From Diabrotica undecimpunctata (lineage: Eukaryota; Arthropoda; Insecta; Coleoptera; Chrysomelidae), in NCBI RefSeq assembly GCF_040954645.1, contig NC_092806.1, positions 27,243,644-27,307,643 of the forward strand: a stretch of DNA of 64,000 nt. The letters run 5' to 3'. Position 1 is the stretch's first letter. Every line of letters starts with the position of its first letter. Shown here piece after piece: positions 18,400-57,245 of this stretch. The translations under genes were made by a program, and so were the position numbers. The notes beneath the pieces were generated by a model that made no database searches, was not told the DNA's origin, and saw only the letters and a program-made list of their open reading frames with translations.

Positions 18400-18443
18400 T
18401 TTTCAGAACGTTTTCGATTCTATCAGATCATCATTAGTGAAAA
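18400..18443 (-). ncRNA. Hammerhead-like ribozyme motif A (PLE-type, small stem III)
   Basis: Read on the minus strand: stem I TTTTCA, core CTAATGA (one change from CTGATGA), extra T, stem II starting GAT and ending ATC, GAA, self-complementary stem III AACGTT, C, then TGAAAA closing stem I with six base pairs. No PLE coding is seen nearby. The G5-to-A change would probably disable cleavage. Confidence 0.6.
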
Positions 18444-20424
18444 ACCTACAAATAAGTATAACCACTTAAAAATTAAAACAAAAAGATAACATTTTGACTG
18501 TTAAATTAAAAATGTGGTTAATATTTACGTCTATAAAGTATTATCCGTTCACAAATTGTTGAGAGCACGAAATGTGCCTCAAACTCATAAAACGGTCGTA
18601 AATCATAGGCATTCCTGAGGTGTTTATTCATTAAATAATAATATAATGTTTTAATACTGTTATATATAATATTAATAATATTTTAATACTAATATATTTA
18701 GCAAAAATCAAATAAAACTTTTACGGACAATGTTGGTTATTATATTATATTAATAAAAATAAGAGTTTAACCATTAACAATTTTGTAAATAAGAATACCT
18801 TATCTCTTTGAATATTTCAATACTAATCTTCGCGTTTAATCACTTTACTAGAAAAAATGGAATTCATATCCGAAGGCACTATTCGTTGCAAGATAATTAG
18901 GATGGAATTCCCCAGATTTTTAATAATATAATGGGTATAAAGATGCCGGCTTTGGCCACGTGCTTCGTCTGTTGTTTATATTCTAGTTTTATTAAGTTTT
19001 AAGTTTTATTAAAAAATAAGTACATAAGTACATAAGTACAATTTAAAAAATATATTTATTTAGTTCAAATAAATGTTTCAATCATATACTCTACGACACT
19101 GGTCGTTCATCTCTAACCATTCAAAATACCCCCGTAATAGGATTATAAGGTATTGTATTCCTTCAGATATAAGGTGGGTTAGTCGAAAACATCTTAAACC
19201 GTCAGTTTCAGGTTGGTTTTTACTATTATATCGTATTACCTATCCTCTCTGTATTTCAGTTCTCTAATTAGGGTTAAACTTGTAGTAAGCTATCGACAAA
19301 TTGTGAACCGATTATAGTTGGATAAATGGCACATAATGAGGTCAGATGATCCTTAAATTACATAATTTTGAGTAACTAACATTATGATTAATAAGACACT
19401 AGGTCGATTATAAAGGATTACATTTTTTAAGGAAACGTACAATTTCCTAACTCGAAAAAAGGACCTTATGCCCTGAGAAGTAACAACCACAGTAGACGTT
19501 TCACGCAGGTAGCTCTAGGTCAAACTAAACTAAATTTGTAGTACCGATACAAATCTTTTGATGTCGCTATACTCTATCTCTAGTCTATACTCTGCAGTTT
19601 AGGTTTAGAACCAAACTAATTATAATTGTCAATCGCCAATTGTCAGTAATTGATTTATATAATCATATTTCAGATGGTTATTATTCGTCTATTTTTGAAT
19701 TGTTTGATTTTATGGTTATTATTGCATAAAGAAATCAAACTAAACTTGGTTTAATATCTCTGGGTTATCGTTAGCATTAACCTCAAATTAGTTTGTAAAT
19801 TACAAATCACCTACCTCAGTGGTCTGTGTTTTAAATGTTCCTGGCCTTCAAATAGTATGTTGCAGATTAATAATGATTAGTGAAATACGGTTTTTCAGAA
19901 TAAACAATTAGACATGCGTTTCCAAATCCTGATATAGACATTATACGATTTAGGTGGCTTAGTGTTATAAAAAGTCCTAATTTAGATATGATGAATTCCA
20001 CAATTCCACTACAGTTTTTAAAACAAAACGAATATGCCACAGGCACGTTGAAGATAAGTTTGCTTCTACATGGAATTATAGTTTGTACCAAAATGCAATT
20101 CCCGATAACAAATAACTGATTGATTTTAGATTCCTCTTCTAATCTACATCCTAGAAGTATTTGAATGTTGTGTGAGGAAGCAAATGTAACAGAAAGTAAG
20201 TAACCCTGATATGTAATTAATAAAAATTATTTTACTTAAAGTGAATCATGGTATAAATTATTATATTAGCTTTTTGTTTTAGTTGAAAGATCTTCAACAA
20301 GTAGAGATGCACAATCTACACACATGTTTCAATCATTTGAGATACCCCATTTTAGTAAGTATTGGGAAGATAACAATTAATAATTTTCCAATTGGTTACT
20401 ATTTGATGAAACTTTTTAGTTGCA
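18444..20424. other. AT-rich DNA, nothing recognised
   Basis: No coding region above background. A short TACATAAG tandem lies near 19,020-19,038. Confidence 0.4.
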
Positions 20425-21115
20425 GAACACAATTATGCACAGGTACCAAACGAAGAGATTTTAACTGTTTAACTGCTTAAAGCCAAAGAGTTTTATAAAG
20501 AAAATAAATTGGTTGATCTTCAAAACATTAATAGAATGGCAGCTATGCTAATTCAAATTCAGTACAGAGAGAGCTGTAAAGCAAAAAAAGCTAAGACGAT
20601 TTACTCTTAATGAGAAACGTTTAACTTTGTCTTTATAAAAACAAAGTGCTCGTTCATATAGTATTCTTTCCAATCTGTTTATCTTACCCAGTAAGTCATC
20701 ATTAAACAAACTTCTGGCTCAAACTATTGGGGGCCCAGGAATTAATAAGTTAATATTTGAGTCACTAAAAGCAACAGTATTAAAAATGGAAGGAATTGAT
20801 AAGTATAAGCTATAATATTTGATGAAATGGCGATTATGCCAAGTCTTCGTTACAATGAGCATAGTAGGTGTATAGATGGTTTTGAAGACCTGGGAGATGA
20901 CAGAGATTCATATATAGCAGATCATGTTCTAGTTTTTATGATAAGAGTTCTAAGAAAATAGTGGGTGGAAATCATCTATTTCATACCAATTTTGTAGCAG
21001 AGGTGGTGCAAAAACCCCTCAAATTAAAACCGTGTTGGTAGAAGTCATTTCTAATTTCTTAGAAGCGTCAGCCTGCTATGCAATAATATCTGTTTCAAAG
21101 GAAATCAACTTAGCA
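20425..21115 (+). pseudogene. P-element-like transposase remnant
   Basis: Joining frames by eye, the + strand shows KRLTLSL, then QSARSYSILSNLFILPSKSS, LNKLLAQTIGGPGINKLIFE, then IIFDEMAIMPSLRYNEH and CIDGFEDLGDDRDSYIADHV, LVFMIR, and later AKTPQIKTVLVEVISNFLEA. The run 'LPS-xx-L--LL', 'G-P-G-I-N--L-F--L', 'DEMA-xx-x-L-x-YN' and 'G-x-E-D-L-G' with 'ADH-LVFM-R' is the core of P-element and THAP9-type transposases; the Asp of DEM is the first catalytic residue. There are several frameshifts and stops. The N-terminal THAP zinc finger and the C-terminal part are missing. The following LINE tail begins at about 21,140. Confidence 0.65.
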
Positions 21116-21139
21116 TCTTCAAAAAAAACATACTTTTCT

Positions 21140-21600
21140 TTGTTCGAGTCTCATTTTCAATATGGTCTTCTTTTTTGGGGTTCTAGAACAGCTGCCCCAA
21201 TCTGATGTTGTTTTTAAATTTCAAAAAAGAGTAATACAGTATCTTTTTGGCTTGAGTAGATATTGAAAAAGCTACTTCAAAAATCACGGGATTTTTACTC
21301 TTCCCTCTTTATATTTTTTAGAAAGTGTTTGCTTAATTCGTAAACACCTATATGTTTTTCCAGTAAGACCTAATCATGATTACTCCACCAGAAATTCAAC
21401 ATTTGATTTGTATTTACTGAACCCGACCACTAAGTTAGTAAAGACATCTATATTATATTCAGCAAATAAATTGTACAACCATCTCCCTTTGCAACTTAAA
21501 TCTTCAACTTCAACTTCAACAATTATTAATAAAATCCTATAATAGTTTCTTATACAATCATCATTAACAAATGTTAATTGAAAATGAGACCTACCGTGTT
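21140..21600 (+). mobile_element. CR1/Daphne-like LINE C-terminus (5' truncated)
   Basis: The + strand reads FESHFQYGLLFWGS, then FKFQKRVIQYLFGLSRY, FKNHGIFTLPSLYFLESVCL, IRKHLYVFPVRPNHDYSTRN, and SANKLYNHLPLQLKS. This order (S-H--YG--FWG, QKR--R--F, --I-TL-SL--LE, NHDY-TRN, K--N-LP) is the thumb and C-terminus of CR1/Daphne-like LINEs. It has one or more frameshifts. A related tail is at 46,382-46,930. Confidence 0.75.
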
Positions 21601-21764
21601 CCATTAAGAATTAAAATTATATCAAAGCACACTATACTTAAGAAATTTCCTAAAATACATCTAAATCACCGTAGACTTCCTTTACTTAATATAAATTTAC
21701 AGTTACTATCGTACAACAAAAATGAGACTAGGTGACAAATAATATTTATAACCAACTATAATAA

Positions 21765-22110
21765 AATGTGGCGATTGGACAAAAACTTACCTCGGTCAAA
21801 CTAGTAGAACTTTTAACAAACGTATATCAGAACATAAAAGGGCTATCAATAATAGAAAAACCGACTCTACGTACGCACTTCACCTTTTAGACCAGAATTA
21901 TTCTTTTAATGACGATTTTCAAATTTTTCACATCCAAAATAAAGGCCTTAAGCTATCTTTATTGGAATCTATGGAAATCAACAAATTAAAAAATACAGAC
22001 ATAATTCTGAATGACCAACTTGAGACTATAAAGTGTAAACACATACCAAAAATAGATCACTTAAGGAAGGTACTCTGCCGAAACAGCTGTGGTGATAAAA
22101 ATTTAAAATA
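21765..22110 (+). mobile_element. Penelope-like element GIY-YIG endonuclease fragment
   Basis: The + strand is open from CGDWTKTYLGQTSRTFNKRI through SEHKRAINNRKTDSTYALHL, LLESMEINKLKNTDIILNDQ, to a stop after SCGDKNLK. 'CGDC-TYLGQT-R---KRI-EH' is the YIG half of a GIY-YIG endonuclease with its Cys pair, as at the C-terminus of PLE proteins. The Glu in the ESMEI segment fits the catalytic Glu. The second Cys is Trp here (CGDW). The GIY half and the RT are absent. A degraded GAAAACAAACGTTTTC hairpin follows the stop, but no full hammerhead motif. Confidence 0.75.
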
Positions 22111-22329
22111 AAGTTTGTGGAAGTTTTGAAAACAAACGTTTTCAGTGTTTTATTGTTATATAAAATAAATTTCCATCAAGTAACAATCGAATCCATCACT
22201 TATAATAAAATACTTTCCTATTCCTCGGCGGCCTACAGTCAAATTTTGACAGATGTCTAAAACCACCTATGGGGTGGGATCCTCAATAGTAACACTAGAG
22301 GAAACATAGAGCATCAAATTACGTGCGGA

Positions 22330-22900
22330 AACCACTGTGCTAAATGGATAATTATATACAATATTTAAAGTATTTAGATAGAAATCAGAAAACAACAGAA
22401 TCAGACAAATTTCTCATAGTCACAGATTCAGTAAATTCATTTCATCTTTTATCTAAAATGTACACCTGCAATTCGATTGGTAAATTGTTAAATAAGTTGC
22501 ATCAGCTGAAGAACAAAAAAAATCTTCTTTATGTAGTTACGATTTCACACGGGTATAAGAGGAAATCAATTAGCTGATACGTACCCTAGAAATGGTCAAT
22601 AACTTAAATGTTAGACAGTATTAAACACATTAGCAGATTTTATGCCATTTTAAGAATAAACTAATCAACAAGAAAACAAATTTCTCCAAATTAAAATAAC
22701 TCAAAGCAAATTTTGAAGGTTAGTGGAAAATTTCCCTCAGTTTTCCAGGAAGTTTTCCTCAGGTAACATTTACTGGACTTTGATTAGGACACAGCAGAGT
22801 CACTAATGAATATCTCATCAAGAAATAACCTTAACCAAAGTGTACCTACAAACTGTGATTCTTTTGGAAATGTCCATTTGACTTAAAATAGACTATTTAG
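22330..22900 (+). mobile_element. LINE fragment with RNase H domain
   Basis: The frame 22,344-22,577 reads DKFLIVTDSVNSFHLLSKMY and LHQLKNKKNLLYVVTISH; after a shift GIRGNQLADTYPRN. 'IVTDS' and 'SH-GI-GN--AD' are the Asp and His/Asp regions of RNase H. Further down LGHSRVTNEYLIKK and CPFDLK match the zinc-knuckle tail. It belongs to the same type as 4,190-5,005 and 38,446-38,895. Confidence 0.7.
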
Positions 22901-22946
22901 TCGTGGTAATAGTGAAAATATGTGTGAAATGTTATAAGTAGACTAT

Positions 22947-22949
<3 letters not shown>

Positions 22950-23010
<61 letters not shown>
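22950..23010. repeat. (TA)n microsatellite
   Basis: About 60 bases of TA. Confidence 0.95.
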
Positions 23011-23014
<4 letters not shown>

Positions 23015-23577
23015 TGAGATGATTGGTGTTTAAAGAAAATAATTTATAAATTATATACTAGATAATATTAGATATTAAAAGTATTTGGTTATTTTAATAA
23101 GTTATATACTAGAAAATTTTATAAAAATTATTTATGTGAGGGCATTTTTAAGAAATTAGCATGTAATAGGTATGGGAAGTTTTTTTTAAATAGTTATAAT
23201 ATTGTAAATATATTTAAGTGAGCCATGTGCGTAGGCAACCAGATATACATACTCTGAAACTGACGTTTAAGTAATGATTACGAATATAAAGTGGGGTTAT
23301 AATAATATGTTGTTTAAAATGTGTAGTTTATTAAATTAGAGTGTTAGTTACTGATTTGAGTGTATATTCTGATCTGAAAAGCCTAAATGTCAACAAAATT
23401 ATCAATAGAAAACTAAAGAATTCTCCAGAATACAGAGTTTGACCTTTGGTTACGGTGGAACATTCACGAATATGATTATGTCTATGGATCCAAGATATAC
23501 TTTTTCCAGAACATTCATATAGGTAGGGAATAGAACAAATCGAACAGGATTTCTTGCTAGATGGTTCTGGAAGATTG
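23011..23577. other. Non-coding DNA upstream of a TATA-like site
   Basis: No coding frame. Together with 23,578-24,370 it could be the end of an LTR element, but no integrase, gag or RT is near and no second copy is in the window. Confidence 0.3.
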
Positions 23578-23660: not shown

Positions 23661-23693
23661 GTTCAAGATAGTGAGAAGGTCCAATTGTTCAAT

Positions 23694-23914
23694 ATATTTG
23701 GTGATTGGATATTGGTATATTGAAAAGAAGAATAAATATAATTATATAATATATTTGGTGATTGGATATTGGTATATTGAAAAGAAGAATAAATATAAAT
23801 ATATAATATATTTGGTGATTGGATATTGGTATATTGAAAAGAAGAATAAATATAAATATATAATATATTTGGTGTTTGGATATTGGTATATTGAAAAGAA
23901 GAATAAATATAAAT
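23694..23914. repeat. 57-bp tandem repeat, 3.9 copies
   Basis: The unit starts ATATTTGGTGATTGGATATT and repeats at 23,694, 23,751, 23,808 and 23,865. Copies differ by only a few bases. Because 57 is a multiple of three, both strands look open across the array (for example YLVIGYWYIEKKNKYKYII repeated). This is a by-product, not evidence for a protein. Confidence 0.9.
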
Positions 23915-24109
23915 GCTGTTTGCTGGTTTGCTTGGTGGTTTATAAATGCTTAAGATTGGTGGAAGCTGATAATTGGAAAAAGTAATTTCACAAAAACAAG
24001 GATAACCGAAGCACGTAGACATTGAGTGGTGATTAGAATCTATATAGTGGAAAACAGTTCATTTAGGCATTCAGTGACAGAAAAGTACAAAATTTTATTA
24101 ATATAATTT

Positions 24110-25800: not shown

Positions 25801-25839
25801 TGCTTAAACGTTTCGGCTATTTACCATTTTCAATAAGCA
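25801..25839 (-). ncRNA. Hammerhead-like ribozyme motif B, directly 3' of a PLE endonuclease frame
   Basis: Minus strand: stem I TGCTTA, decayed core TTGAAAA (consensus CTGANGA), extra T, stem II GG...CC, GAA, stem III ACGT, T, then TAAGCA closing stem I with six pairs. It begins only a few bases after the GIY-YIG frame ends at 25,846. This ties the motif family to PLEs. Core changes suggest it no longer cleaves. Confidence 0.65.
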
Positions 25840-25844
25840 CTTTA

Positions 25845-26060
25845 ATTATTGAACATCACTTAATACACAATTATATTTTATGTCTACACTCTTTGGTTGT
25901 TTTACATTTAAATATACATATAAAACCACCAAATGTACACTATGTTTATGTGCAACAACTCTTTTGTGTAGATATTGGTGTGTTTGCCCAATATATGTTG
26001 AATTGCAGTCTTTACAATTTACTTTATAAACAAAGCGTCTAAGCTTCCATTCCATGTAGT
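25845..26060 (-). mobile_element. Penelope-like element GIY-YIG endonuclease fragment
   Basis: The frame reads MEWKLRRFVYKVNCKDCNST then YIGQTHQYLHKRVVAHKHSV. 'VYKVNCKDC--TYIGQT---L-KR---H' contains both halves of GIY-YIG in altered form (VYK, YIG), the Cys pair and the catalytic Arg region. The C-terminal part is out of frame or diverged, and the RT part is missing. It is followed on the same strand by hammerhead-like motif B, the arrangement expected at a PLE end. A LINE fragment abuts upstream. Confidence 0.7.
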
Positions 26061-27109: not shown

Positions 27110-28310
27110 AATTTAAGTATACGACTATCAGCTATCACTGGAGAAAATCCTTGTTTGAAAAGTTTTACCGAGAGAACACCAAAACTCAAGGTACTTGAGG
27201 GGTCTTCTACAGTTCCTGCGGGTTCAGAGGCATCAACATGGTACCTATGAGGTTCCGGAAGATAGTAGACGTCAAACAACAGTAAGGTACACCCTACCCA
27301 ATGAAGATGGAAACTTTGCTCGTGTGTAAGAATACATTAATAAATCCCTTTGCTGTAGCAAGAAAAAAGCTGAAAGTTCTTGTAAATAAAAAGAAACTTG
27401 GCGAAACTTCTTTCTCAGATAACAGGACGTCTCATAAAAACTCGATACGAGGGCAAAGTCCAGTAAAGAATACCCAAGCCCGGACTTGAATATTAATAGA
27501 TTGTCCAGATCTGATCAAGAGCGATATCCAGATACTAAAGTAACTCATAAATCCTATAGATCTGTTTTCAAACGCAAATTTCCAAATTTGTCTTTTCGAC
27601 GACCTCGAATGGATACATACCTATGATATATTGTACTGTGAAATCCGTATAAACAAACGTAGTAGCCATCAGTCAAAATGTCAGCTAGAACTTCACCAAA
27701 GGAAAGCCGAAAAGGCAAGAAAACTACTTAAGCAAGATATAATAGATCCACAACAACCTGGTAACAAGGTTGGCTTATCCATGAATCTGGAACAGGTCAT
27801 GTTTGTGCCAACGTTAGTTCACTCAAATATGTTCAACTTGTCACAGATATCCTGTTTTCACTTTGGAATACATGTAAGGGACACAAATATTGTCTCCATG
27901 TTCATGTCCAATAGTGGCTTTACTAACAAGGACATCCTGATTTGAAGCGACAACTGTGGTGGCCAAAATAAAAATAAATTTATTTTGTTTGTGTTGATTT
28001 TTTTGGTTTCTAGTGGCTATACAATTTTATAGGCGGCCACAGTTTGATGCCTTGTGACAGGAATTTTGCCCTATTAGAAAAACGGAAGAAAACTATGACA
28101 GCATTCGTGCCGAAAGATTTGATCAACGATATTACTTCCGCAAGATACACTCCACCTTTCGATGTCATCGGAATAAATAGCTTTGGTTTTTGGAACATCA
28201 AAGAGGCTGCTGAGAAAATGTTAAATACCACTAAGCTACAAGTTAGCAAATCAGTTAGGATAAGTGTTGAAAAAGAGAATCCTATAAACATCAAAATTAC
28301 ATAATCATTT
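27110..28310 (+). pseudogene. Degraded multicopy insect gene with an SDNCGGQNK motif (transposase-like)
   Basis: Frames joined by eye give VRYTLPNEDGNFARVCKN near the N-terminus, then DQERYPDTKVTHKSYRSVFK, RKFPNLSFRRPRMDT, then HQRKAEKARKLLKQDI, VMFVPTLVHSNMF, FGIHVRDTNIVSMFM, NSGFTNKDILI, SDNCGGQNK, and a clean final frame (28,044-28,304) starting MPCDRNFALLEKRKKTM and ending SVEKENPINIKIT. I recall a large family of uncharacterised insect proteins with this order (VCK motif, RRPR-D-C, then SDNCGGQNKN and HSFMPCDRDF). The conserved acidic residues and high copy number suggest a transposase, but I cannot name the family. Several stops and frameshifts and two internal losses make this a pseudogene. 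Confidence 0.55.
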
Positions 28311-28385
28311 TCAGAATTTGAATCATGATGTGAAACTAACGTTTTAAAAAAGAATATGACGCTAACTGATTTAAACAAAATTAAA

Positions 28386-29370
28386 TTAGTGATAATTAGA
28401 AGCTACAAAAGTTCTGTATAAAGAAAATAAAGTGTCCATTAAAACAGGAACAAGAATCATAGGAGACTTCACCACAACAAAAGGGCTCCTGCAGGGTTGT
28501 TCCACATCTTCAAACCTATTCAAAATATACTTAGAAAAAGCCTTGACTACATGGAAAAGAAATTGCAGGCATGGGAGTACCGGTACGAAACTAATACCTA
28601 TATACGTTAAGCTTTGCAGACGATCAAGTAGTGATTGCACAAGACCAAGAAGACCTCAGTTACATGATGAAGAAACTACAAGAAGAATATACCAAAGCTG
28701 GCTTAGATATTAACCTCGCGAAAACAGAGTACCTATCTACAAGTGAAGAAGACATAGAAGATCTACAGATTGACGACAACGTAACAATCAAAGGAAAGCA
28801 TAAATTTAAATACTTGGGGTTTATAATCACGAAAAAGGCAACAACAGAAGAAGAAATTAAGCAAATATTAGGACAAACAAGAACAGCAATCCGACAACTT
28901 AACTCAGTATGGTGGGATAGACACCTAAATATGAAGACAAAAACACAGATTTATAAAACATTAGTGCGAAGTATTATGACATATGGGGCTAAAAATTGGA
29001 TTATAAACAAGTAAAACAGCAGTAAGATAGTAGCAATAGAGATGGAATTCCTGCGAAGATGCTGCAGAGTAAGAAGAATGGATAGGAGAAGTAATGATGA
29101 CATAAAGACAAGAACATCAATAGAAACAGACATACTAACATATATAGAACAAAAAAGACAAAGGGGTATGGCCATGTAAGAAAAACTAGCGACAGCAGAT
29201 GGATCAAGAGAATATCCGAATGGAGCCCCATAGGAAGGAGGAAAAAAGGCGACCTAGAAGATTCTGGACGAACGAAGTAGACGACGCCATGAGTAAGAGG
29301 CCTAAACGATGAAGAATGGGACAACAGAGATAGATGGAAACGGTTGAGCGAGAGAAGGCATTGAATACTG
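28386..29370 (+). mobile_element. LINE ORF2 fragment, same family as 59,097-60,774
   Basis: The + strand begins in the RT palm (KENKVSIKTGTRIIGDFTTT, KGLLQGCSTSSNLFKIYLEK), shifts frame, then reads QDQEDLSYMMKKLQEEYTKA, GLDINLAKTEYLSTSEED, YLGFIITKKATTEEEIKQ and LVRSIMTYGAKNWIINK. The C-terminal domain follows out of frame to about 29,370. Motifs match the minus-strand copy at 59,125-60,696 closely (KGLLQGCSTS, TEYL, YKYLGFII). Stops and several frameshifts; 5' truncated. Confidence 0.8.
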
Positions 29371-29491
29371 TACAGTAAAATGTATTGGCATGTCTCGCAA
29401 AACAGAAAACCACAAAAGGTATATCGATGGAAGGCAACCGTATATACGTATTTCTGACTGACTATTGGTCGTCTTCAGTACGGTGCAGCAA

Positions 29492-35720: not shown

Positions 35721-35976
35721 TATGAGAGAGTAATAAAACAATAAATTATGTATGCAAATCCCTAAACTGTTGATACGGGTGACTCAATGAAAAACAGATA
35801 GTAGTGAAGTATATAGGAAAACAATTTTAAATTGAGTATGACCACCAGGTATAAAGGTTGGAGCAGAATAGAATACAATAGTTGTGAGCGTTACTAATCC
35901 CTAAATAAGGTTGCCAGTGTCGGAGTGATGGAGGTTAATAGGTACTAATGAATTTGCAAGAAATGTAAGATGTTTA

Positions 35977-36161
35977 TTTTATTGGTTATATATAACCAAT
36001 AAAAGTTTAATAAGTACCTACCTATTTGCAAAATAAAGTTTAATTCTTTAGATAAAATAAAACGTTTTATTTTATCTATTTGCAAAATAAAGTTTAATTC
36101 TTTGCCTATTTGCAAAATAAAGTTTAATTCTTTAGATAAAATAAAACGTTTTATTTTATCT
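35977..36161. repeat. Cluster of three 28-bp perfect palindromes and direct repeats
   Basis: Palindrome 1 is 35,977-36,004 (half TTTTATTGGTTATA). Palindromes 2 and 3 are identical (36,050-36,077 and 36,134-36,161; half AGATAAAATAAAAC). Between and before them, CTATTTGCAAAATAAAGTTT occurs three times (near 36,022, 36,077 and 36,106). It lies about 245 bp upstream of the intact transposase gene. Confidence 0.9.
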
Positions 36162-36404
36162 GAAATGAGTGCATTCCACGAAGTAAGGGTTTCAACAATC
36201 AAACATTTAATTCGTTAATTCCAGGAATCTACGACAGTAATTGACTAGATAATTACCTTCTAAACTTATTTCACAGAAAATGTGATAGTGGGTTTTTCCA
36301 TTTTGTATATAGGAAGATCCAAGTGGCGTATTCAAAATTCTTAACAGTTCACTAAAAGTAGGTACTTCAGTTGCAAGGTGCAGTTTATTGTGTATACTAG
36401 TGTT

Positions 36405-37745
36405 ATGGAAAATTTGGAAGTGCCGTGTAAACGCCGAAAAATTGGTCCTCTAACAGTTAATGAAAAAACATTAATATTTAATTGTTTTAAATCATTTACA
36501 GACAAACGTTTATGTGAAAGTGTTGATGAGACCGTTGAGTTAGTTAGCAGTACACTTGGTGTTGGGAAATCTACGATTTACAGAGTTATTAAAGAAGAGA
36601 AATGTGGTAGTTTTCAAATGCCACGTAATGCTCCAAGGAAACCAAAATTTCAAATAGAATATCATTTTAAAGAAGGACTTCGACGGAAAGTGCATGAATT
36701 CTTCTTTAGACAAGAATTTCCAACATCGGATAAAGTTCTTGTCTCAGTTCGAGATGATAAGGATTACCCAGAAATGAGTCGAAGTACGTTATGGAAACTT
36801 TTAAAAGAAATAGGCTTCCGCTGGAAAAAGAATCCCAGAAAGTCTATTTTATTAGAAAGAAGCGATATTGTCATATGGAGAAGACATTTTCTAAGAATCA
36901 TAAAGGAAATGAGAAACCAAAAAAGAAAAATATTTTATCTTGATGAAACATGGATCAACGAGGGTCATACACCAAATAAATTTTGGCAGGATGAAACTGT
37001 TACAAGTCAAATGCACGCTTTTGTAAATAACTTATCTACTGGTTTAAACCCACCATCAGGAAAGGGACGCAGGCTGATAATAGTACACATTGGCAGTTCA
37101 GACGGTTTTGTTGAAGATGGTTTATTAACTTTTGAATCAACTCGTACCGGTGACTACCATGAAGACATGAACGCTGATGTCTTTCAAGAATGGTTCGAAC
37201 AAATGATAGATCTTCTTCCTAAGAACTGTGTAATAGTAATGGATAATGCAAGTTATCACTCCAGACTTATAGAAGGACTGCTCACAACCAAGTGTTTAAA
37301 AAATGACTTGCAGAATTGGCTGAGTTCAAAATATATTACGTACCATCCCGGATCTATAAGAAAGGAACTTTATTCGTTGTGTGCCCTTCATAAAGAAAAA
37401 TTTAAAAAATACGAAATTGATGAAATTGCCAAAAATCGTGGAATGACAGTACTTAGATCCCCACCATATCATTGTGAATTAAACCCGATTGAACTGGTAT
37501 GGGCACAGATAAAGAGTGAAGTTTCAAGAAAAAATACCACTTTTAAAATTCATGATGTTAAACAGTTGTTTTTGGAGGCCGTAAATAATGTAAAACCTGA
37601 AAACTGGGAAAAGGCAGTAAATCACACTATTAAAGAAGAGGAAAAAATGTGGAAGCTGGACAATATTACTGATAAAATGATCGAGCCAGTTATTATAAAT
37701 CTTGGTTCTGAAAGTTCATCTTCTGAATCTGATTTGGATTTGTAA
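36405..37745 (+). CDS. Intact IS630-Tc1-mariner transposase, DD82E spacing (Sailor-like)
   Basis: The longest clean gene in the window. I place the start at MENLEVPCKRRKIGPLT (36,405); an upstream in-frame ATG at 36,378 adds nine hydrophobic residues and looks less likely. The protein is 446 residues from there. Roughly residues 15-75 form a helix-turn-helix (ELVSSTLGVGKSTIYRVIKE). A second DNA-binding part follows (MSRSTLWKLLKEIGFRWKK). The DDE core has FYLDETWINEG (first Asp), CVIVMDNASYHSR (second Asp) and CELNPIELVWAQIKSEV (Glu). Between the second Asp and the Glu I count 82 residues, because an extra segment (about DLQNWLSSKY to IDEIAKN) is inserted. DD82E is the signature I associate with the Sailor group. 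The tail is acidic and serine-rich (SESSSSESDLDL). No terminal inverted repeats were found by eye. An intact frame means a recent, active or host-retained copy. Confidence 0.9.
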   Translation: MENLEVPCKRRKIGPLTVNEKTLIFNCFKSFTDKRLCESVDETVELVSSTLGVGKSTIYRVIKEEKCGSFQMPRNAPRKPKFQIEYHFKEGLRRKVHEFFFRQEFPTSDKVLVSVRDDKDYPEMSRSTLWKLLKEIGFRWKKNPRKSILLERSDIVIWRRHFLRIIKEMRNQKRKIFYLDETWINEGHTPNKFWQDETVTSQMHAFVNNLSTGLNPPSGKGRRLIIVHIGSSDGFVEDGLLTFESTRTGDYHEDMNADVFQEWFEQMIDLLPKNCVIVMDNASYHSRLIEGLLTTKCLKNDLQNWLSSKYITYHPGSIRKELYSLCALHKEKFKKYEIDEIAKNRGMTVLRSPPYHCELNPIELVWAQIKSEVSRKNTTFKIHDVKQLFLEAVNNVKPENWEKAVNHTIKEEEKMWKLDNITDKMIEPVIINLGSESSSSESDLDL

Positions 37746-39514: not shown

Positions 39515-39555
39515 TAGCTGAGAGCTTTCGGTTTGCAAAGCCATCTTCAGAGCTA
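39515..39555 (-). ncRNA. Hammerhead-like ribozyme motif C
   Basis: Minus strand: stem I TAGCT, intact core CTGAAGA, extra T, stem II closed by GG...CC, GAA, stem III AG(CT)CT, C, then AGCTA closing stem I with five pairs. All core positions fit the hammerhead consensus apart from the one extra base before stem II. Confidence 0.7.
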
Positions 39556-40789: not shown

Positions 40790-41120
40790 TGGATTTGTAT
40801 ATAAATCACCAGTCTTTTGGGTTGAACCGCGTCGATTATCATTGCGTCGAGTTTTCGACATCCTATTTGATGTCTTCTTCAGGGCTTCCGAGGTCTTAGT
40901 CTCCAGAGATCCCAGACACTACTACACTGATCACTGACCAATGCATTACTGCTACTGGGAACAGAGGACGGTTTATTTATACCGTCGATGGTAACGTGGT
41001 TTGGATGGGGGTTGGCGTGGGGATTAGTCTCTATGTCAAAAATAACCGTATGCTGTCATTTCCTTTATTTTATACAATAAAAGAGATGACGGCATACGGT
41101 CAACTTCGACATGGAGACGT
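40790..41120. repeat. Cluster of hairpins, including a 95-bp imperfect hairpin
   Basis: Around 40,788-40,814 CTGGTGGATTTG and its near complement form a short hairpin. Motif D follows (40,851-40,882). At 41,026-41,120 a longer imperfect hairpin pairs GTCTCTATGTC...CCGTATGCTGTCAT with ATGACGGCATACGG...CGACATGGAGAC around a 26-base loop. GC content is higher than in the flanks. Possibly one end of a PLE-derived element. Confidence 0.55.
40851..40882 (-). ncRNA. Hammerhead-like core D (incomplete)
   Basis: Minus strand: core CTGAAGA, extra A, a perfect six-pair stem II (GACATC...GATGTC), then GAAAAC. I could not find a stem I or a clear stem III, so it is a decayed member or a chance match. Confidence 0.45.
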
Positions 41121-42246: not shown

Positions 42247-42295
42247 AGATAGATATTTCAAATCATGAATGTGTTGCTTGTGTGAGTCCATTTCA

Positions 42296-42827
42296 AAAGG
42301 TAAAAGAAATAATAAATTAGACTTACTTACAATCAATTTAATTTAACTAATCGGACGACCGGTTTCGCTTTCTATAATATGTAAAGCATCTTCAGGTCAC
42401 GATACAAAGTTACAATGCTGAAAATAATAATCCCATATTAGGGTGTTGTCTAATAAAGATAAAACAAAGGTAGGTGATATAAATTATATAAATTACAGTA
42501 ATTATGTCAATATTACATGTCTGTGGTTTTATAACTGAATAAAATGTTTAAGCAGACAATGTAAGACCCACAAATTGGTAAAATAGTCTATTAAACTGTA
42601 ATGAATTAATAAATAAACAAATAAATAAAACATTACTTACATGCCGGTACTCTATTAATTGATGGTTGAAAGAACATGGTTCAAACTATCTTGTATTGTT
42701 GATTGGAGAACTCAGGTCAACTATTGTAATTGTTTAACAGTAAACGGGGAAGTTCTTGAGGAGACAGATTTTATCCAATGAAGTAGAGATAGGTGAAATG
42801 TAATTGTTTGTTTCATGAAAGTAATGT
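42296..42827 (-). repeat. Left arm of the inverted repeat
   Basis: Begins AAAGGTAAAAGAAATAATAA and ends at AAAGTAATGT. It is the reverse complement of 42,943-43,474 with very few differences. Confidence 0.95.
42350..42403 (-). ncRNA. Hammerhead-like ribozyme motif E (left arm)
   Basis: Minus strand: stem I ATCG(T)GAC with one bulged base, intact core CTGAAGA, extra T, stem II GCTTT...AAAGC, GAA, stem III ACCGGT (three pairs, no loop), C, then GTCCGAT closing stem I with seven pairs. A stem III without a loop would fold better in a dimer of two RNA copies. Confidence 0.75.
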
Positions 42828-42942
42828 AATGACAACTGTCACCTTCAAAAACAAAACATAAAAATCTCAATAAATAACACACATTTCATAAATATATCTC
42901 CAGAATAAATATAAATAACTTTAAAGAACTTAATGGTATAGA

Positions 42943-43474
42943 ACATTACTTTCATCAAACAAACAATTACATTTCACCTATCTCTACTTCATTGGATAAA
43001 ATCTGTCTCCTCAAGAACTTCCCCGTTTACTGTTAAACAATTACAATAGTTGACCTGAGTTCTCCAATCAACAATACAAGATAGTTTGAACCATGTTCTT
43101 TCAACCATCAATTAATAGAGTACCGGCATGTAAGTAATGTTTTATTTATTTGTTTATTTATTAATTCATTACAGTTTAATAGACTATTTTACCAATTTGT
43201 GGGTCTTACCTTGTCTGCTTAAACATTTTATTCAGTTATAAAACCACAGACATGTAATATTGGCATAATTACTGTAATTTATATAATTTATATCACCTAC
43301 CTTTGTTTTATCTTTATTAGACAACACCCTAATATGGGATTATTATTTTCAGCATTTTAACTTTGTATCGTGACCTGAAGAGGCTTTGCATATTATAGAA
43401 AGCGAAACCGGTCGTCCGATTAGTTAAATTAAATTGATTGTGAGTAAGTCTAATTTATTATTTCTTTTACCTTT
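42943..43474 (+). repeat. Right arm of the inverted repeat
   Basis: Begins ACATTACTTTCATCAAACAA and ends TTCTTTTACCTTT, next to the right TSD copy. Confidence 0.95.
43367..43420 (+). ncRNA. Hammerhead-like ribozyme motif F (right arm)
   Basis: Mirror copy of motif E on the + strand. The extra base after the core is G here (CTGAAGAG), and a loop base of stem II differs. Stems I, II and III are kept. Confidence 0.75.
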
Positions 43475-43487
43475 AGATAGATATTTC

Positions 43488-47223: not shown

Positions 47224-49397
47224 CTTTCTTTCTTCAGTCTTAAGTAATCCAACTTTGGACATAGGCCTCCCCCAAATCAATCCAGTGTCTTCTATTTTGC
47301 GCCACTTGCTTCCAGTTGTGTCCTCCGATCTTCGTAATGTCATCAGCTCATCTCATTTGTGGTCTTCCTCTGCTTATCCTTAAGTCGGGCATTGTATCCT
47401 GCGAAACTCCATTTTAATTTGGCAGCATGTTCTCCTGCATCTTTTACTTTGGTTTTGCTTCTAATCCATTTGTTTGTTTTCTTGTCTATTAGTCTTGATT
47501 GATCTTTCCATCACGAAGGATTGATCTTTCCATAAGATCACGAATTGAAAAAGCGCGAAACGCGTTCAACAATATGAAAAAGTGGTTCACAAGCAAAATC
47601 TCAATGGAACTAAAATTAAGACTGGTCAAGTGTTATGTCTTCCCGGTCTTGTTCTATGGAGCATTGGCATGGACCACAACGGAAGCCACCCTGAAGAAAC
47701 TAGAATCCTTTGAGCTGTGGATATATCGCCGTATTCTTCGGATATCCTGGACAGACCACATCACTAACGTGGAAGTAATGCAGAGAATAGGCAAAACCAA
47801 AGAAATAATCTTCACCGTAAAGAAACGGAAGCTTGAGTACTTCGGACATGTCATGAGGCATACTAAGTACCGGCTGCTACAGTTAATAGTCCAAGGAAGA
47901 ATCGACAGTAGGAGGGGACCGGGAAGAAGACGACACTCATGGATGCATAACCTGCGACAATGGTTCGGACTAACATCGACCGAACTGTTCAGAGGTGCCG
48001 TAAACAAAGTCAAAATAGCCTTGTTAATAGCCAACGTCCAAAACGGATAGGGCAAAGGAAGAAGAAGAAGATCTTTCCATCGCTCTTTGTGCTTTTACTA
48101 TTTTATCCATATTAGACTTGGTAAGTGTCCACGTCTGTGAACCATACGTGAGTATAGGAAGGATACACTGATCGTAAATTCTGGTTTTCAAATATTGTTC
48201 TATTTTAGTGCTTTTCAAGATCCAACTCAGTTTTCCAAATCCTGCCCACGCTAACCTTATTCTTCTGGTAATTTCGGCAGTTTGATTTTCTTTGTTAACT
48301 TTCATTATCTGTCCCAGGTAGATGTATTCGCTTACTGTTTCTAAATTTATGTCGTTCAACATTATTTCTCTAATGTTCGGTGTATTTGTCATTATTTTTG
48401 TTTTTTCCAAGTTCATCTTAAGTCCTACTTTTTCCGAAGCTTGAAATAGTTGCGTCATCATGGTCTGTAGTTCTTAGAAACTTGTAGCGAATATAACAAT
48501 GTCATCACCGTATCTTAAATAACTGTTTTCTTCCATTAACATTTATTCCTTTATCTGTCCAGTTAATATCTTTGAACACGTCTTCCAGTCCAAGTGTGAA
48601 TAGCTTTGGTGAGATAACATTTCCCTGGCGAACTCCTCTGTTGATTGGTTTAGCTTTGGTTTTCGCATCTATTTGTATTTTCATTGTAGCTTTCTTGTAA
48701 ATATTATGTATGAGCATTCTGCATCGGGAGTCTATCCTGCAGTTGTTCATAACTCTCTCTATTGCCCAAAGTTCTATGAAGTCGAATGCCTTTTCATAAT
48801 CAACGAAGCCAATGTATAAGTTCAAGTGATATTCATTGGTTTTCTCTATTAGAGTTCTGACTGTAAGAATATGATCCGCTGTACTGTAACTCTTTCGGAA
48901 TCCTGTCTGCTCTACCGGTTGATAGCTATCGAGCTTCAACGTTAACCTGTTAGTTATTACTCTCATAAACAGTTTGTACATTTGGAACAGCAGGGAGATT
49001 GGCCTATATTTCTTCAGATCTCCCCTGTCTCCCTTTTTGAAGAGAAGTATTGTCAAACTTTCATTCCAATCATCTGGAACTTCTCCTCTGTGAAGACATT
49101 CGTTGAAAAAATTTTTCAATTCTTCGAGAATAATTTCACTCCCCTCCTTCAACATTTCTACAAGTATTCCATCTGGGCCTGGAGCCTTATTGTTCTTTAG
49201 TTGTGCCATAGCTTGTTCTATTTCGAAGGATTCTATGTTAGGGAGTATTTCTGAGTTGATATTCGTTGTCTTTCTCTTGAGATCTTCCTTTGCAGTGTTA
49301 TCTGGGTTCTTGTTTGAGGAATATAAATCACGGTAAAATGATTGAGTAACTTTTAGGATTTCGTTCTTTTCTCTTATTTCTTTTCCATCTTTATCCT
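47224..49397 (-). mobile_element. 5'-truncated LINE with a 10-bp TSD, interrupted by a second LINE
   Basis: ATATGTGTTA flanks the element at 47,214-47,223 and 49,398-49,407. The minus strand encodes the endonuclease-RT linker, QLKNNKAPGPDGILVEMLKE, WNESLTILLFKKGDRGDLKK, EQTGFRKSYSTADHILTVRT, YIGFVDYEKAFDFIELWA, INRGVRQGNVISPKLFTLGL, YGDDIVIFAT (YADD as YGDD), GLKMNLEKTKIMTN and YIYLGQIMKV. It breaks at KAQRAMERS where a 557-bp + strand LINE is inserted, and resumes at 47,500 with TNKWIRSKTKVKDAGEHAAK, LKWSFAG and the final tail. Few defects: one stop after the YGDD box and a small number of shifts. Confidence 0.88.
47513..48069 (+). mobile_element. 5'-truncated LINE nested in the 47,224-49,397 LINE
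   Basis: GATCTTTCCATC lies at 47,501-47,512 and 48,070-48,081. The + strand frame (47,499-48,050) reads SRIEKARNAFNNMKKWFTSK, LRLVKCYVFPVLFYGALAWT, IYRRILRISWTDHITNVEVM, KLEYFGHVMRHTKYRLLQLI, GRIDSRRGPGRRRHSWMHNL and ALLIANVQNG, then a GAAGAAGAAG tail. This is the thumb and C-terminus of an RTE-like LINE. At the 5' junction an extra copy of the target (GATCTTTCCAT at 47,521-47,531) is present, as if local filler was made during integration. Confidence 0.9.
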
Positions 49398-52707: not shown

Positions 52708-52756
52708 TGGGCCTGATGATGGGGAAAACATTGTAAGCCTAGAAACCGGTAGCCCA
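52708..52756 (+). ncRNA. Hammerhead-like ribozyme motif G
   Basis: + strand: stem I TGGGC, intact core CTGATGA, stem II (TGGG...GCCTA, with a wobble pair; the T can pair with the last A), GAA, stem III ACCGGT, A, then GCCCA closing stem I with five pairs. All core residues are kept, making this one of the best copies. Confidence 0.72.
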
Positions 52757-53456
52757 AAATTTACGAACTTTATTAAATAAAAACTACTTAAGATTGTGAG
52801 TATTGGTGAACAATAGATGTGGTTTACAATAATTAGGCGAGATAATTAAATGTTTACAGGTAATAGTTAAATTGTTTATAAACACTCACCAATATTACTG
52901 TTTTATACACTCTCTGTATTCACATAAGCAGGTTTCACACGCAGTGGTTTCACACGCAGTGGTTTCACGTAGAAGTTTTAATTTGTCTTTTCTTAGTGTT
53001 TGTCTGTAACGGATTCGCGGTATTATTCACATGTAAACACTGTAACCGTTTCTTTTTGAGTAGTCGTTCACTACGAGAGGAGACAAGAGCGTCTATCTTC
53101 TACGGGAACAAAATTAAAAAAGTTAAAAAACAACATTTGTTGTTCCTACAGGAACCAATAGGTAAGAGAGAGATTTTTCTTTTGCATTGTCCAAGAATGT
53201 CTTTATTTCTCGCGGTTGGAAATAAAATGAGGTAGGAGGAATTATTACTAAGGGTTACGAAGGGTATAAAACATTGTTTTTCGCGTGTGACAAAGTTAAT
53301 AAGGGATTCTCTTGTAATTTGTGTGATTACTTTTTGTGTTATCTGACACTTGTTTATAATAGATATTTTTACTTCGAAATTATGTTTTGTAGAAAAAAAA
53401 AAGATTCGTGAATGGACACAGATATCAAATGCAAGACAATTATTCCATATTGCAGA
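52757..53456. other. Non-coding DNA with a 15-bp tandem repeat
   Basis: GGTTTCACACGCAGT is present 2.6 times at 52,931-52,970. A GC-richer stretch near 53,000-53,230 has no recognisable coding motif. Confidence 0.5.
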
Positions 53457-53635
53457 CAGTGACGGATCCAGAAATTTTTGTCAGGGGAGGTCATGGGTCT
53501 TGAGGGTGATTTTGATACAGGATTTAAATTTTTGTACCTTTCAGTGGCTGATCCCCAGAAATTTTGTGTCGGGGGAGGGGGGTCATGGGTCTTAACCGTG
53601 ATTTTGATATATGATTTAGATTTTTGCACCTTTAC
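53457..53635 (+). repeat. Tandem duplication of an 85-95 bp G-rich unit
   Basis: A unit starting CAGTGACGGATCCAGAAATT at 53,457 is repeated from 53,542 (CAGTGGCTGATCCCCAGAAA) and includes GGTCATGGGTCTT and GATTTTGAT in both. CAGTGGCGGATCC-type ends are common at insect repeats. A related G-rich phrase on the other strand is at 55,510-55,551. Confidence 0.75.
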
Positions 53636-53954
53636 CCTACGGGTGCAAAGAAGGGTACGACATTAAGAGGTCTTAAACTTATACAAAAAAAATAATTTAA
53701 ACCCACATACTCTATGAGAGTAAAATCAAGTGTACAAGACCATTAAACGAAAGGAAAGTTAGAAAGATAATTAAAATATAAATACTGAAAAATCAAGGAC
53801 TAGAAAGGACTAGGACAAGGAATTTAAACTAGGTATTTTAAAGACAATTAATTTAAACCCACCTATCGTATAGCTACCAAATCAAGAACAAACCAAGGAT
53901 AAATAAGTATAAACCAAAGTTAAGTAATTCAAATGCAATAACGCAATGTATGTG

Positions 53955-54435
53955 TAAATATTCCTAATAAACTCTATCTTATCGATGGATATCCCATATC
54001 AATTTGTAAAAACATTTATGCCTTATTGCGATATGGAGTGGAACATGGACTCTCGGAATTACAAGTATGAGGCGTATAGAAGCCTTTGAAATGTGTGTTT
54101 TTCGAAGAATGCTGAAGATTTCGTGGACAGAGTACGTGACTAATAATGAGGTGCTAAAAAAATGAGGACTGAGAGAGAACTCCTAAATATTGTAAACAAC
54201 AGAAAAACGAGTTATTTAGGACATATTTACAGAGAGGAAAAATATAACTTTCTGCGACTCATAATGGAAGGGAAAGTAGAAGGAAAAAGAGGTCCAGAAA
54301 GAAAAAAATGCTCCTGGCTGAAGAATGTAAGAGACTGGACAGGCATGGGCACACATTCGATACTAAGAACAGCTCAAAATAGAGAGCAATTTGCTGTAGT
54401 TATAGCCGCTCTTCCGCAATGAAGAAGAAACCTTA
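53955..54435 (+). mobile_element. 5'-truncated LINE C-terminus
   Basis: The + strand reads LLRYGVE, then SMRRIEAFEMCVFRRMLKIS, WTEYVTNNEVLKK, and in the frame 54,162-54,422 LNIVNNRKTSYLGHIYREEK, YNFLRLIMEGKVEGKRGPER and SWLKNVRDWTG, ending VVIAALPQ, then a GAAGAAGAAA tail. It is the same C-terminal domain as at 47,513-48,069 and 7,305-7,430. One frameshift near 54,160. Confidence 0.8.
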
Positions 54436-55480
54436 AGAATAAGTGTAAACAGCATTTTGTTTAAATTAATTTATTCAACAAAAAACATAATATAATTAAG
54501 GAACAGTTATTTCTATAATTAGGCATATTAGGCTATAAGTGAGTGAAATATTTTTTTACTCGGTATTGAAATTTTTCTCACCAATTGTCAGCAACAGCCG
54601 GAAACGAGTGGTAAATAAAATTTCAGTGATTAAAAATACCTACTATAAGAATAAGATAAGTAAATATTATATAATTTTATAAAAATCGCAAAAATGCCTT
54701 TATAAAAAGGTATCTTCAATTCAATGTCTAGTTGTTCAGGTATTTGTTTACTTCATAGTAAAGTTTGCTAAAAACAGATTCAGCATTTGATCTTTTATTT
54801 TGAAGAATGCATTTAGTGTTCTATATGGTCTCAGTAGCCTACTTAAAATCTAATTTTGGTCACTGAAGAAGACGAATAAGTGATACAGTTTTACCTAAAA
54901 CATCACTAAGACAAACTACTGTTTCACAATTTCACAAATACCTTGGACAGCAGCCCCCAGTTCCTTTATTTGTATTCACTAACGTATCAGACATAGCTAA
55001 TGCAACAACAATATTCACTTTGATATTATTTATAATAGATAAATTATAAAATGTAGCACATAGTCTCAACAATTATAATACATATTCAAATTACAAACAA
55101 CCAATTCGTAGACAAAACTGAAGATAAGAAAAACCTAATACAAAATAAAAATGTGCTGATTTTCTTGCGAAAAGTCAAGTCATGTACATTGAATGAGCAA
55201 TAATGTATGAGCGGTAATTCTATCTCATCGATAATCGAACGATTCTCTGGCACTCAAATGACGAATTGACAAAATTTGAAAATCGTCTAACTCTGAATTC
55301 GTGGAAGTCTTAGTCGAGCTAGACTGTATTTAGAATTGTTGATTTTTTTAAAGAGCAATTTAAAAAGGCTTCCGTATAATTCTACACTAACCCCTAGAAT
55401 AAAGGAGTTTAAATCATTTCAACTCTTGACTTCCTGCTTATAGGGTTGATGGGTTTTAAATTATTTTTTTGGGATTATTT
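54436..55480. other. AT-rich DNA, nothing recognised
   Basis: No gene or repeat seen. Confidence 0.4.
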
Positions 55481-55551
55481 GATTGATATTTAATTGTTGT
55501 TTTGGGGGTGGTCATGACCCCCGTGACCCATCCCCCCCCCCCCGCCACTGA
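55481..55551. repeat. G-rich/C-rich repeat with a 13-base C run
   Basis: GGTCATGACCCCCGTGACCC followed by a run of about 13 C and GCCACTG. On the minus strand this reads CAGTGGCGGGG, the start of the unit duplicated at 53,457-53,635. Confidence 0.6.
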
Positions 55552-55632
55552 TTGCAGAAGATCGAGAAGCCTTCGCAATGGTGATCGCCAACGTTGGATA
55601 GTTCTGATATGGCACGCGAAGAAGAAGACGTA
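55552..55632 (+). mobile_element. LINE 3' end (very short)
   Basis: EDREAFAMVIANVG and then RRRRR with a GAAGAAGAAGA tail, the very end of the family at 47,513-48,069 and 53,955-54,435 (compare ALLIANVQNG and VVIAALPQ). Confidence 0.6.
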
Positions 55633-56924
55633 AGATCCAGCATTGTTTTTAAGGCTGCAATGGGAAACCACAGCATTGCACCTTTGACTCATACACAAGC
55701 GAGACTTTCCTTTTGCAATTCTATTATTGCTTTTTGATCCGTTGACCGGACCACAGCACAGCATAAGTAACTATGGTCTGATGACAATGAGCAATATATC
55801 ATTTTAGGTTTCAGACTATATGTTTTGCATAAAGCATACGGTCCAAGGAGCTCTTGTTGTGATGAGAATATCTCGCAAATTTCTTATCTAAGATAACTCA
55901 GAGATCCAACATAGTGTGTTTCATTCATGTTAGAGGTTAAATAATATTTTTTTTCCTATTTGTAAATGAAACAAATGTCTTTTTATTAGAATTTACCGAA
56001 AGTCCTTTTTTCACAAACAATATGTACATGTTAGACAAAAAATAAAGCAAATTCAAGTCGAGTCCTGGAATGACAAAAATGACAAAACAAAAGAAAAATG
56101 AATGTATTAAGAGCTACAAACGTATAAAACTAATAGGTGGAAGTAAAATGAATATATTAAAAAATAAATGTTCGATGGAACAAAAAGATCAGACACTTGA
56201 ACCCATATAGTGCAAAAATATGAAGAGGACGACTTCAAATAAAATGGAGCTGTGATATTAAGGGAAATTTTGGTTCAATGTGGTAAAACAAACTGAACAG
56301 AAGTAAATTGAGGCGAAAAATATCAAATAGTATTGTCTTTAAACTGAAGTTTTTTTACTTTAAAAGCTTTCACTTCTGCAAAGTATTTTTCAACTATATA
56401 TTTTTTGTAAAAGCTAGTAAAACCAATTTATTACTTCCGCCTTTTCTATTTCGTAACCACACATCAAATTTTCTCTTTTTGAAGTAAAATATAGTCCGTT
56501 TCTATAAAATATTTGAATACTGCAACACTGAAGTTATTTACGACATTGTCCTCCGGCAATCTTCTGATTATTACTGGTATCGTATTTCGAGGCTGATAGC
56601 ATCCCATCTCGGAAGTAGATCATGTATGTTGTATTAAAAATTAAGTGTTTTCTTCTATCTGACATCTGAACGCAAGAAATAACTATAAATTACTGGTGGA
56701 GAGAAAGTCTTTGTTGCAAAATAATGTTATCAAATATTATATCAGAAAAAAGAGATAGACTTAAAGGTGGATATAAATATTTGAGATTTGTAACTGCTGT
56801 TAATTTTGAATACAATATCAATGATTCTTTATTAGAACTGTTAATTTTGATTACAATACCAATGATTTTTTTTAGAATTTAATTAAAATTAAAAAATAAT
56901 GTTTTAGATCTATTACATCTTTCA
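55633..56924. other. AT-rich DNA, nothing recognised
   Basis: A short direct repeat (TAACTGCTGTTAATTTTGA / GAACTGTTAATTTTGA) lies near 56,790-56,850. No gene seen. Confidence 0.4.
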
Positions 56925-57140
56925 GAACTTGACACCAAGGACATCCAGACTACTAAAAATCTGTATTGGAATGTGGAATATATTGTGGAATAAGTGGAAC
57001 AGCCCACATAAAGTGTAGATATGGTGAGTCAAAATATAACCATTTCTTTTCTAGAGGGGTTAGATAGGGCTGCATACTTTCGCCACTGCTTTTCAATCTA
57101 TACAGGGAACAAATATTTCTAGAAGTGATATAAGGTTGAA
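56925..57140 (+). mobile_element. LINE RT fragment
   Basis: The + strand reads LDTKDIQTTKNLYWNVEYIV, then, after shifts, GVR-GCILSPLLFNLYREQIF. 'GVRQGCILSPLLFNLYSE-IF' is RT block B', with the Q codon mutated to a stop here. Related to the fragment at 3,690-4,003 (GVRQGCVMSPLLFNLNSECI). Confidence 0.65.
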
Positions 57141-57206
57141 TGCTCGAATAAATTAATTTTAATCAAATAAAAGGCAGATATACAGCACAGTTTTTTTATT
57201 AAATCT

Positions 57207-57245
57207 TGTCCAAGTACTTTCGCTCCTAGAGCATCTTTAGGGGCA
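57207..57245 (-). ncRNA. Hammerhead-like ribozyme motif H
   Basis: Minus strand: stem I TGCCC with GGACA (four of five pairs), core CTAAAGA (one change from CTGAAGA), extra T, stem II GCTC...GAGC, GAA, stem III AGTACT, T. Probably a decayed copy. Confidence 0.55.

Follow-up and report, generated by a model that had tools for sequence, protein, structure and literature searches.

The window analysed here is a stretch of 64,000 nucleotides of the Diabrotica undecimpunctata genome (contig NC_092806.1, positions 27,243,644 to 27,307,643; part of contig C4 in our numbering of a 1.74-Gb assembly with 2,867 contigs), in which eight short hammerhead-like stretches, motifs A to H, lie dispersed. A direct check of the 64-kb window found all eight at the positions and on the strands given in the original prediction. 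They are very probably minimal type I hammerhead ribozymes of Penelope-like elements (PLEs), intact in C, E, F and G and decayed in A, B, D and H, and cleavage is predicted from their sequence. Minimal PLE hammerheads are an already known kind; added here are the layout as outward pairs, what this implies for cleavage by dimers, and breakpoints at stem II. Loci fetched from elsewhere in the genome are designated by L numbers. The motifs are listed with grammar scores and covariance E values, obtained as described below.

18400 to 18443, minus strand: motif A, hammerhead with stem III AACGTT and the broken core CTAATGA (grammar 27.0)
25801 to 25839, minus strand: motif B, hammerhead with stem III ACGT and the broken core TTGAAAA (grammar 21.3; covariance E 0.006)
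39515 to 39555, minus strand: motif C, hammerhead with intact core and stem III AGCTCT (grammar 26.5; covariance E 0.11)
40851 to 40882, minus strand: motif D, core and stem II still intact, but without stems I and III, which small changes have removed (covariance E 6.5e-5)
42350 to 42403, minus strand: motif E, intact core, stem III ACCGGT, 57 bp from the outer end of its arm (grammar 31.0; covariance E 0.001)
43367 to 43420, plus strand: motif F, hammerhead of the second arm, intact core, outward-facing (grammar 31.0; covariance E 0.024)
52708 to 52756, plus strand: motif G, intact core, stem III ACCGGT (grammar 32.8, the best of the window; covariance E 4.8)
57207 to 57245, minus strand: motif H, decayed, core CTAAAGA, stem III AGTACT (covariance E 0.28)

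Core and stems are kept in C, E, F and G. Tested against CUGANGA and GAA(A), the core is intact in C, D, E, F and G and altered in A, B and H, at positions which we take to be essential in hammerheads; D is without stems III and I.

Both strands were scanned with a grammar consisting of a stem I no shorter than three pairs, CTGANGA with at most two changes, 0–1 extra base, stem II, GAA, an A..T stem III, a non-G base and the closing strand of stem I; its score was devised after the motifs had been seen. For the randomised control, 2,117 windows were redrawn from a first-order Markov chain in 2-kb blocks, which is not an exact dinucleotide shuffle. The scan of the window recovered A, B, C, E, F and G, plus one chance-level match at 35940. 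Scores of at least 26 were reached by five matches, against a redrawn mean of 0.017 and a maximum of 1, and the top single score among redrawn windows was 30.0. With B added, six matches scored at least 20 (redrawn mean 0.49, maximum 4), and seven scored at least 16, with 2.6 expected. D and H did not pass the grammar and were placed by covariance score or homology instead.

Across the genome, the core pattern CTGANGA-N4-34-CGAAA was matched 85,979 times and its reversed version 22,528 times. Among 100 matches listed, all from the first 2.9 Mb of contig C1, 45 had a stem II of at least four pairs, compared with 2.4% in a control in which halves of different rows were combined; 45/100 applied to 85,979 gives a rough estimate of ~39,000 copies with core and stem II. 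Three of the 100 listed matches look like zinc-finger linkers, and the genome count appears to be inflated by coding matches in this way. A C2H2 zinc-finger frame is present beside PLE copies in L058 (8355–8978, minus strand), its linker codons also fitting the core pattern, and repeats like it, with ~84 bp spacing, were seen in other contig C1 loci.

For alignment, 36 distinct hammerheads were drawn from the fetched loci. Eight rows were omitted in a first alignment (seven of window families and one row with score 22.0 resembling chance) and 13 further rows with longer stems III in a second, which left 15. The covariance model made from these 15 hammerheads includes none from the window and no rows of the D, E/F and H families, and holds 4-nt stems III only; it was run on the window with filters off. 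Up to E 10, 24 matches were obtained, including all eight motifs. D ranked first in the window (26.3 bits), followed by E, B, F, C, an unrelated match at 47540 (E 0.2) and H. The unrelated match (47540–47569) has a broken core, lies inside the open frame 47499–48047 and was taken as chance.

In the 15-row alignment 85.9% of cells pair, against 14–49% with the partner strand slid by 1–3 columns, and cells changed on both sides number 39, against 14.8 in shuffles; the rows of this test had been selected by the pair-demanding grammar. A test unbiased with respect to stems I and III was performed on loci L009–L068 and the window, where a site qualified if its core was intact and its stem II had four or more Watson-Crick pairs. 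It yielded 45 distinct sites, a number that gives no genome-wide density as small loci had been picked largely for a paired-looking stem II. Stem III was a palindrome of 4, 6 or 8 nt in 38 of the 45, and in 30 of these stem I also had three or more Watson-Crick pairs; the same sequences read backwards gave 0 sites. Three stems with kept pairing, with stem I open, are found in the set, D and H having lost parts; stem III of the fetched hammerheads is very short, chiefly a palindrome of 4–8 nt. One extra base (T or A) follows the core in 28 of the 36 distinct rows. Reading the extra T as part of a start codon (A9-T-G) was dropped as a general rule, the frame closing after ~11 codons in copies read by eye.

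Relatives of individual motifs were found among the fetched loci. Motif H is 89% identical over 98 nt to L009, in which the core is intact, and 86% over 121 nt to L056; motif G resembles L012 at 86% over 42 nt, i.e. the hammerhead itself; and motif A matches the L038/L060 family (61% over 328 nt, E 1e-14) under permissive scoring only, default scoring giving no match. At motif D, 238 nt align at 79% identity with the terminal region of the coding PLE in L049. Motif D had been described as lacking stems I and III, correctly, and is read from sequence as a decayed copy because its relative L016, which shares its stem II, has both (stem I GCC/GGC, stem III AGCT).

Motifs E and F are two arms of one inverted repeat (42293–43477) with a non-matching centre of ~140 bp. 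The eight motifs are for this reason not eight independent cases. The element consists of the following parts.

42247 to 42259, no strand: left target site duplication AGATAGATATTTC, 13-bp direct repeat flanking the E/F element
42260 to 42292, minus strand: AC-rich tail of 33 bp with GGACTCACACAAGCAACAC, at the left end of the element only
42293 to 42817, minus strand: left arm of the E/F inverted pair, inner border approximate
42958 to 43474, plus strand: right arm of the E/F inverted pair, inner border approximate
43475 to 43487, no strand: right target site duplication AGATAGATATTTC, 13-bp direct repeat flanking the E/F element

The inverted arms, the AC-rich tail at one end and the 13-bp target duplication of E/F are PLE hallmarks. 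Eight inverted elements were examined, and in five of them (E/F, L012, L013, L018 and L019) a 10–13-bp direct repeat abuts one arm and a 23–40-bp tail lies at the other end, the target duplication of L018 being T-rich and weak. No target duplication was found in L009 and L010, and L011 ends in (TA)n; L010 is a symmetric inverted repeat just 229 bp long with two hammerheads.

The link to PLE coding was examined in 20 loci of 9.9 kb chosen around listed core-pattern matches, with PLE pieces of the window as queries and, in a second round on all loci, frames from three of the 20. Endonuclease coding ends ~280–590 bp upstream of a same-strand hammerhead in six of them (L049, L057, L058, L067, L054 and L063), which represent five hammerhead families, D's included; in L051 only the last part of the open reading frame (ORF) lies upstream on the same strand. 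Pfam reverse transcriptase was detected in frames of L049, L057 and L058 (E 1.2e-12 to 4.6e-7), and one ORF in L049 contains both RVT_1 (E 1.2e-12) and GIY-YIG (E 0.0011). Along the strand, coding copies are ordered as reverse transcriptase (where present), GIY-YIG endonuclease, ~280–590 bp, hammerhead and element end, the last often at (TA)n; in L058 an ORF begins at the hammerhead's end. Of 29 hammerheads, 16 had a (TA) run of at least 8 in the 200 bp on their downstream side and one had such a run upstream; 3.4% of random stretches contain one. In the window a hammerhead next to PLE coding, in the position of a pseudo-long terminal repeat (pseudo-LTR), is seen for B and D, but not for A, C, E/F, G or H, and among the window families coding copies were seen for D's only. 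PLE coding in the window is as follows.

21752 to 22108, plus strand: PLE GIY-YIG endonuclease remnant (EN2; GIY-YIG in Pfam at E 0.008, under the cut-off; tblastn 1.7e-7 to the window's other endonuclease)
25933 to 26031, minus strand: GIY-YIG endonuclease remnant of B's PLE copy, 93 bp upstream of B (tblastn E 8e-4 and 1e-4)
41027 to 41118, no strand: fold-back of a PLE ORF end beside motif D (Rfam scan and homology)
60755 to 62344, minus strand: broken PLE coding, reverse transcriptase then GIY-YIG pieces (tblastn E 2.4e-51 with the L057 ORF for 60830–62344)

A long interspersed nuclear element (LINE) piece at 57990–60756 (minus strand) separates the broken PLE from motif H. The palindrome at 41027–41118 scores as a mir-515/mir-489 precursor in Rfam (E 0.002, below cut-off), and such folded-back PLE sequence is a possible origin of false microRNA annotation. 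In the D-family end region (L016 550–760; window 40851–41000, minus strand) a TATA-like box and an initiator-like sequence were noted by eye upstream of the hammerhead and, in L016, an ATG just past the hammerhead followed by GTGAGT, a candidate 5' splice site. A pyrimidine-rich YAG stands directly before stem I in 8 of 39 distinct hammerheads (L009–L068), compared with 3.7% of random stretches; this is suggestive only of a possible 3' splice site right before the ribozyme.

Orientation of neighbouring hammerheads was analysed in 227 kb of merged contig C1 loci (37 blocks, many only 0.6–2.5 kb long), some of which had been fetched because both members of a pair were among the matches listed. 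Fifty hammerheads in this sample scored at least 22. Neighbours no more than 2.6 kb apart made up 15 pairs, of which 12 face outward, 1 faces inward and 2 stand in tandem; for the 12 pairs whose two members share a family, as judged by stem II, the numbers were 11, 1 and 0. The pairs at C1:2499355 and C1:2564088, both counted among the 11 outward ones, have the same flanks and appear to be a single locus that was duplicated, and the window contributes E/F as a further outward pair. Of the 50 sampled hammerheads, 22 sit in same-family head-to-head inverted copies that carry a hammerhead close to either outer end. Tandem copies that could form dimers in cis were absent from the 12 same-family pairs, drawn from blocks many of which are short, and a cis-tandem dimer is therefore not encoded there. 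A transcript of an outward pair holds one sense and one antisense hammerhead, so a dimer must form between transcripts. RNAcofold favoured dimers for 14 of 14 sequences, by 1.4 to 12 kcal/mol, but most of the predicted dimers are extended duplexes; L024 shows a double-hammerhead form and H pairs via stem III. A tandem dimer does not fit the inverted layout found here.

Assignment to PLEs was weighed against three other origins. Chance recurrence of short stems and a 7-base core in an AT-rich genome would account for the near-chance numbers at the lower grammar scores and for the poor performance of A and G in the covariance search. It is refuted for the set, and is extremely improbable, by the five matches at 26 or more, by copies elsewhere that share flanking homology with D, E/F and H, and by the empty control on reversed sequence. 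Non-autonomous retrozymes, small circular-RNA elements with type I hammerheads that are mobilised by others and have nothing to do with PLE pseudo-LTRs, would fit the 13 of 20 loci without upstream same-strand PLE coding, and animal retrozymes do carry type I hammerheads (PMC7229834, in the passages available). Those elements are, however, described there as tandem repeats giving RNAs of ~170–400 nt; in the contig C1 sample neither a same-family tandem pair nor head-to-tail repeats of ~170–400 nt bounded by hammerheads were found, and PLE endonuclease coding precedes the hammerheads of five families in the loci as well as motif B of the window. We consider this origin very unlikely. Terminal inverted repeats of DNA transposons, either miniature inverted-repeat elements or fold-back elements that happen to contain hammerheads, would explain target duplications and symmetric inverted repeats such as L010, but not the unequal ends in five of the eight elements examined, nor the head-to-head order that is also seen in copies with PLE coding (L049, L057 and L058); this explanation is disfavoured and highly improbable.

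Minimal hammerheads of PLEs, as originally proposed, agree best with endonuclease coding upstream in five families, the remnant beside B, the D–L049 alignment and the tail, duplication and arms of E/F. The further proposal, that the motifs mark PLE copies which have mostly lost their coding, is supported by the same data; a family link to coding was seen for D and an adjoining remnant for B. Several results count against the assignment to PLEs. Rfam gave no hammerhead match in the window, neither at gathering cut-off nor up to E 10, and in the covariance search that had been suggested as a check, in which the own-genome model finds D, E, B and F, A (E 1.7) and G were not significant; their weakness is attributed to the model containing only 4-nt stems III. 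Two of five covariation measures in the 15-row alignment did not exceed shuffles (pairs changed on both sides, 7 vs 6.3; further pair types, 13 vs 12.1). No PLE coding was found in 12 of the 20 loci, PLE coding in L060 lies on the strand opposite the hammerhead, and no coding copy was found in the loci for the families of A, E/F, G and H. GIY-YIG in the frames of L049 and L067 falls just under the curated Pfam cut-off, the EN2 remnant is accompanied by no convincing hammerhead in 22100–23100 (best 7.9 bits, E 0.25), and homology searches under several settings gave no relative of motif C among the fetched loci.

If the motifs are PLE hammerheads, PLE RNA from the pseudo-LTR would carry a hammerhead just ahead of the ORF start, and cleavage would occur after the base following stem III. 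Efficient cleavage probably requires two RNAs that pair through stem III, since this stem is mostly a loop-less palindrome of 4–8 nt, and the partner of an outward-pair hammerhead would have to come from another transcript because the two lie on opposite strands. Inverted pairs would be made while the element inserts, either because both cut strands serve as starting points for copying or through self-priming.

Several truncated copies begin at stem II or inside it, both arms of two palindromes among them. L058 contains a 4.1-kb palindrome, 99.6% identical, whose centre is a hammerhead stem II, and L051 a 172-bp palindrome centred on the stem II of another family. One copy in L029 begins inside the stem II loop, L061 and L023 each have one arm that starts at CGAAA (by eye), and a diverged copy in L063 (74% identity) begins at the G that follows stem II. 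E/F is centred on sequence other than stem II, and a further palindrome (L052/L043) turns upstream of the hammerhead, near an apparent transcription start (by eye). None of the 5' breaks listed lies at the predicted cleavage site, the nearest being 8 nt before it (L063), in a list that mixes truncations with ends of between-family homology, the latter, many in number, left uncounted. A scan for junctions in stem II gave three forward matches, all of known families, against two on reversed sequence, so the scan alone is no proof. Copies that retain sequence upstream of the cleavage site would derive from RNAs uncut there, and PAc, a PLE of the Poseidon group, uses unprocessed RNA in vitro (passages of PMC11167929). 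Judged from these few loci, stem II may halt the enzyme or prime the turn. It is conceivable, though we consider it rather unlikely, that the hammerhead serves PLE insertion more as a fold than as scissors, with stem II stopping reverse transcriptase or priming a head-to-head turn, templates left uncleaved and any catalysis in trans. Among literature on PLE inversion and hammerheads, none that ties stem II to such junctions was recognised by title and abstract openings, in a search mostly outside subscription papers.

Comparison with published systems is made with the passages available from each source. Minimal hammerheads occur in PLE pseudo-LTRs and are described as tandem and able to act as dimers (PMC7761336). 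With the PLE minimal type I hammerheads of Cervera and de la Pena (2014) and of Lunse, Weinberg and Breaker (2017), taken via PMC7761336 and PMC6155905, the motifs share the core, an open stem I and a very short stem III, as well as the link to PLE pseudo-LTRs and the thousands of dispersed non-coding copies. They differ from what these passages describe in a stem III that mostly has no loop and is palindromic over 4, 6 or 8 nt, in the extra T or A after the core, and in that sampled neighbours form outward inverted pairs rather than tandems. Inverted pseudo-LTRs have been reported for Penelope of Adineta vaga, with head-to-head as the commonest order, a 31-bp tail on one and duplications of 8–10 bp (PMC3846280); shared with the copies described here are head-to-head inversion, an optional tail (~31 bp there) on one inverted pseudo-LTR, target duplications, AT-rich targets and palindromes at inverted junctions. 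The word "hammerhead" was not found in the main text of that paper as available, whereas some junctions here lie in hammerhead stem II.

Poseidon PAc of Anolis carolinensis (PMC11167929) shares a hammerhead at the ORF start, an AC-rich start of reverse transcription and an AT-rich target, and this PLE enzyme is reported in the same source to cut and extend both strands; its hammerhead is described with stems I and II and as cleaved only with protein, whereas here sequence alone was analysed. Animal retrozymes (PMC7229834) have type I hammerheads and high copy number in common with the set, and differ in the tandem repeats that lead to circular RNAs, of which none was seen in the sample. Passages of PMC7761336 call the in vivo activity and the function of PLE hammerheads still a mystery; the many copies and families, the outward pairs and the junctions mappable to the base offer material on cleaved versus uncleaved templates and on action in trans only.

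Other elements in the window include an open DDE_3 transposase frame of ~455 aa at 36345–37742 (plus strand; Pfam E 9e-14), with short inverted and direct repeats at 35977–36164 just before it. LINE-like reverse transcriptase pieces, only some of which were profile-scanned, lie at 13764–15381 (minus strand), 28013–29371 (plus strand), 48027–49395 (minus strand) and 57990–60756 (minus strand, the piece next to the broken PLE). A minisatellite with a 57-bp unit (3.9 copies, 98% matches) is located at 23691–23914.

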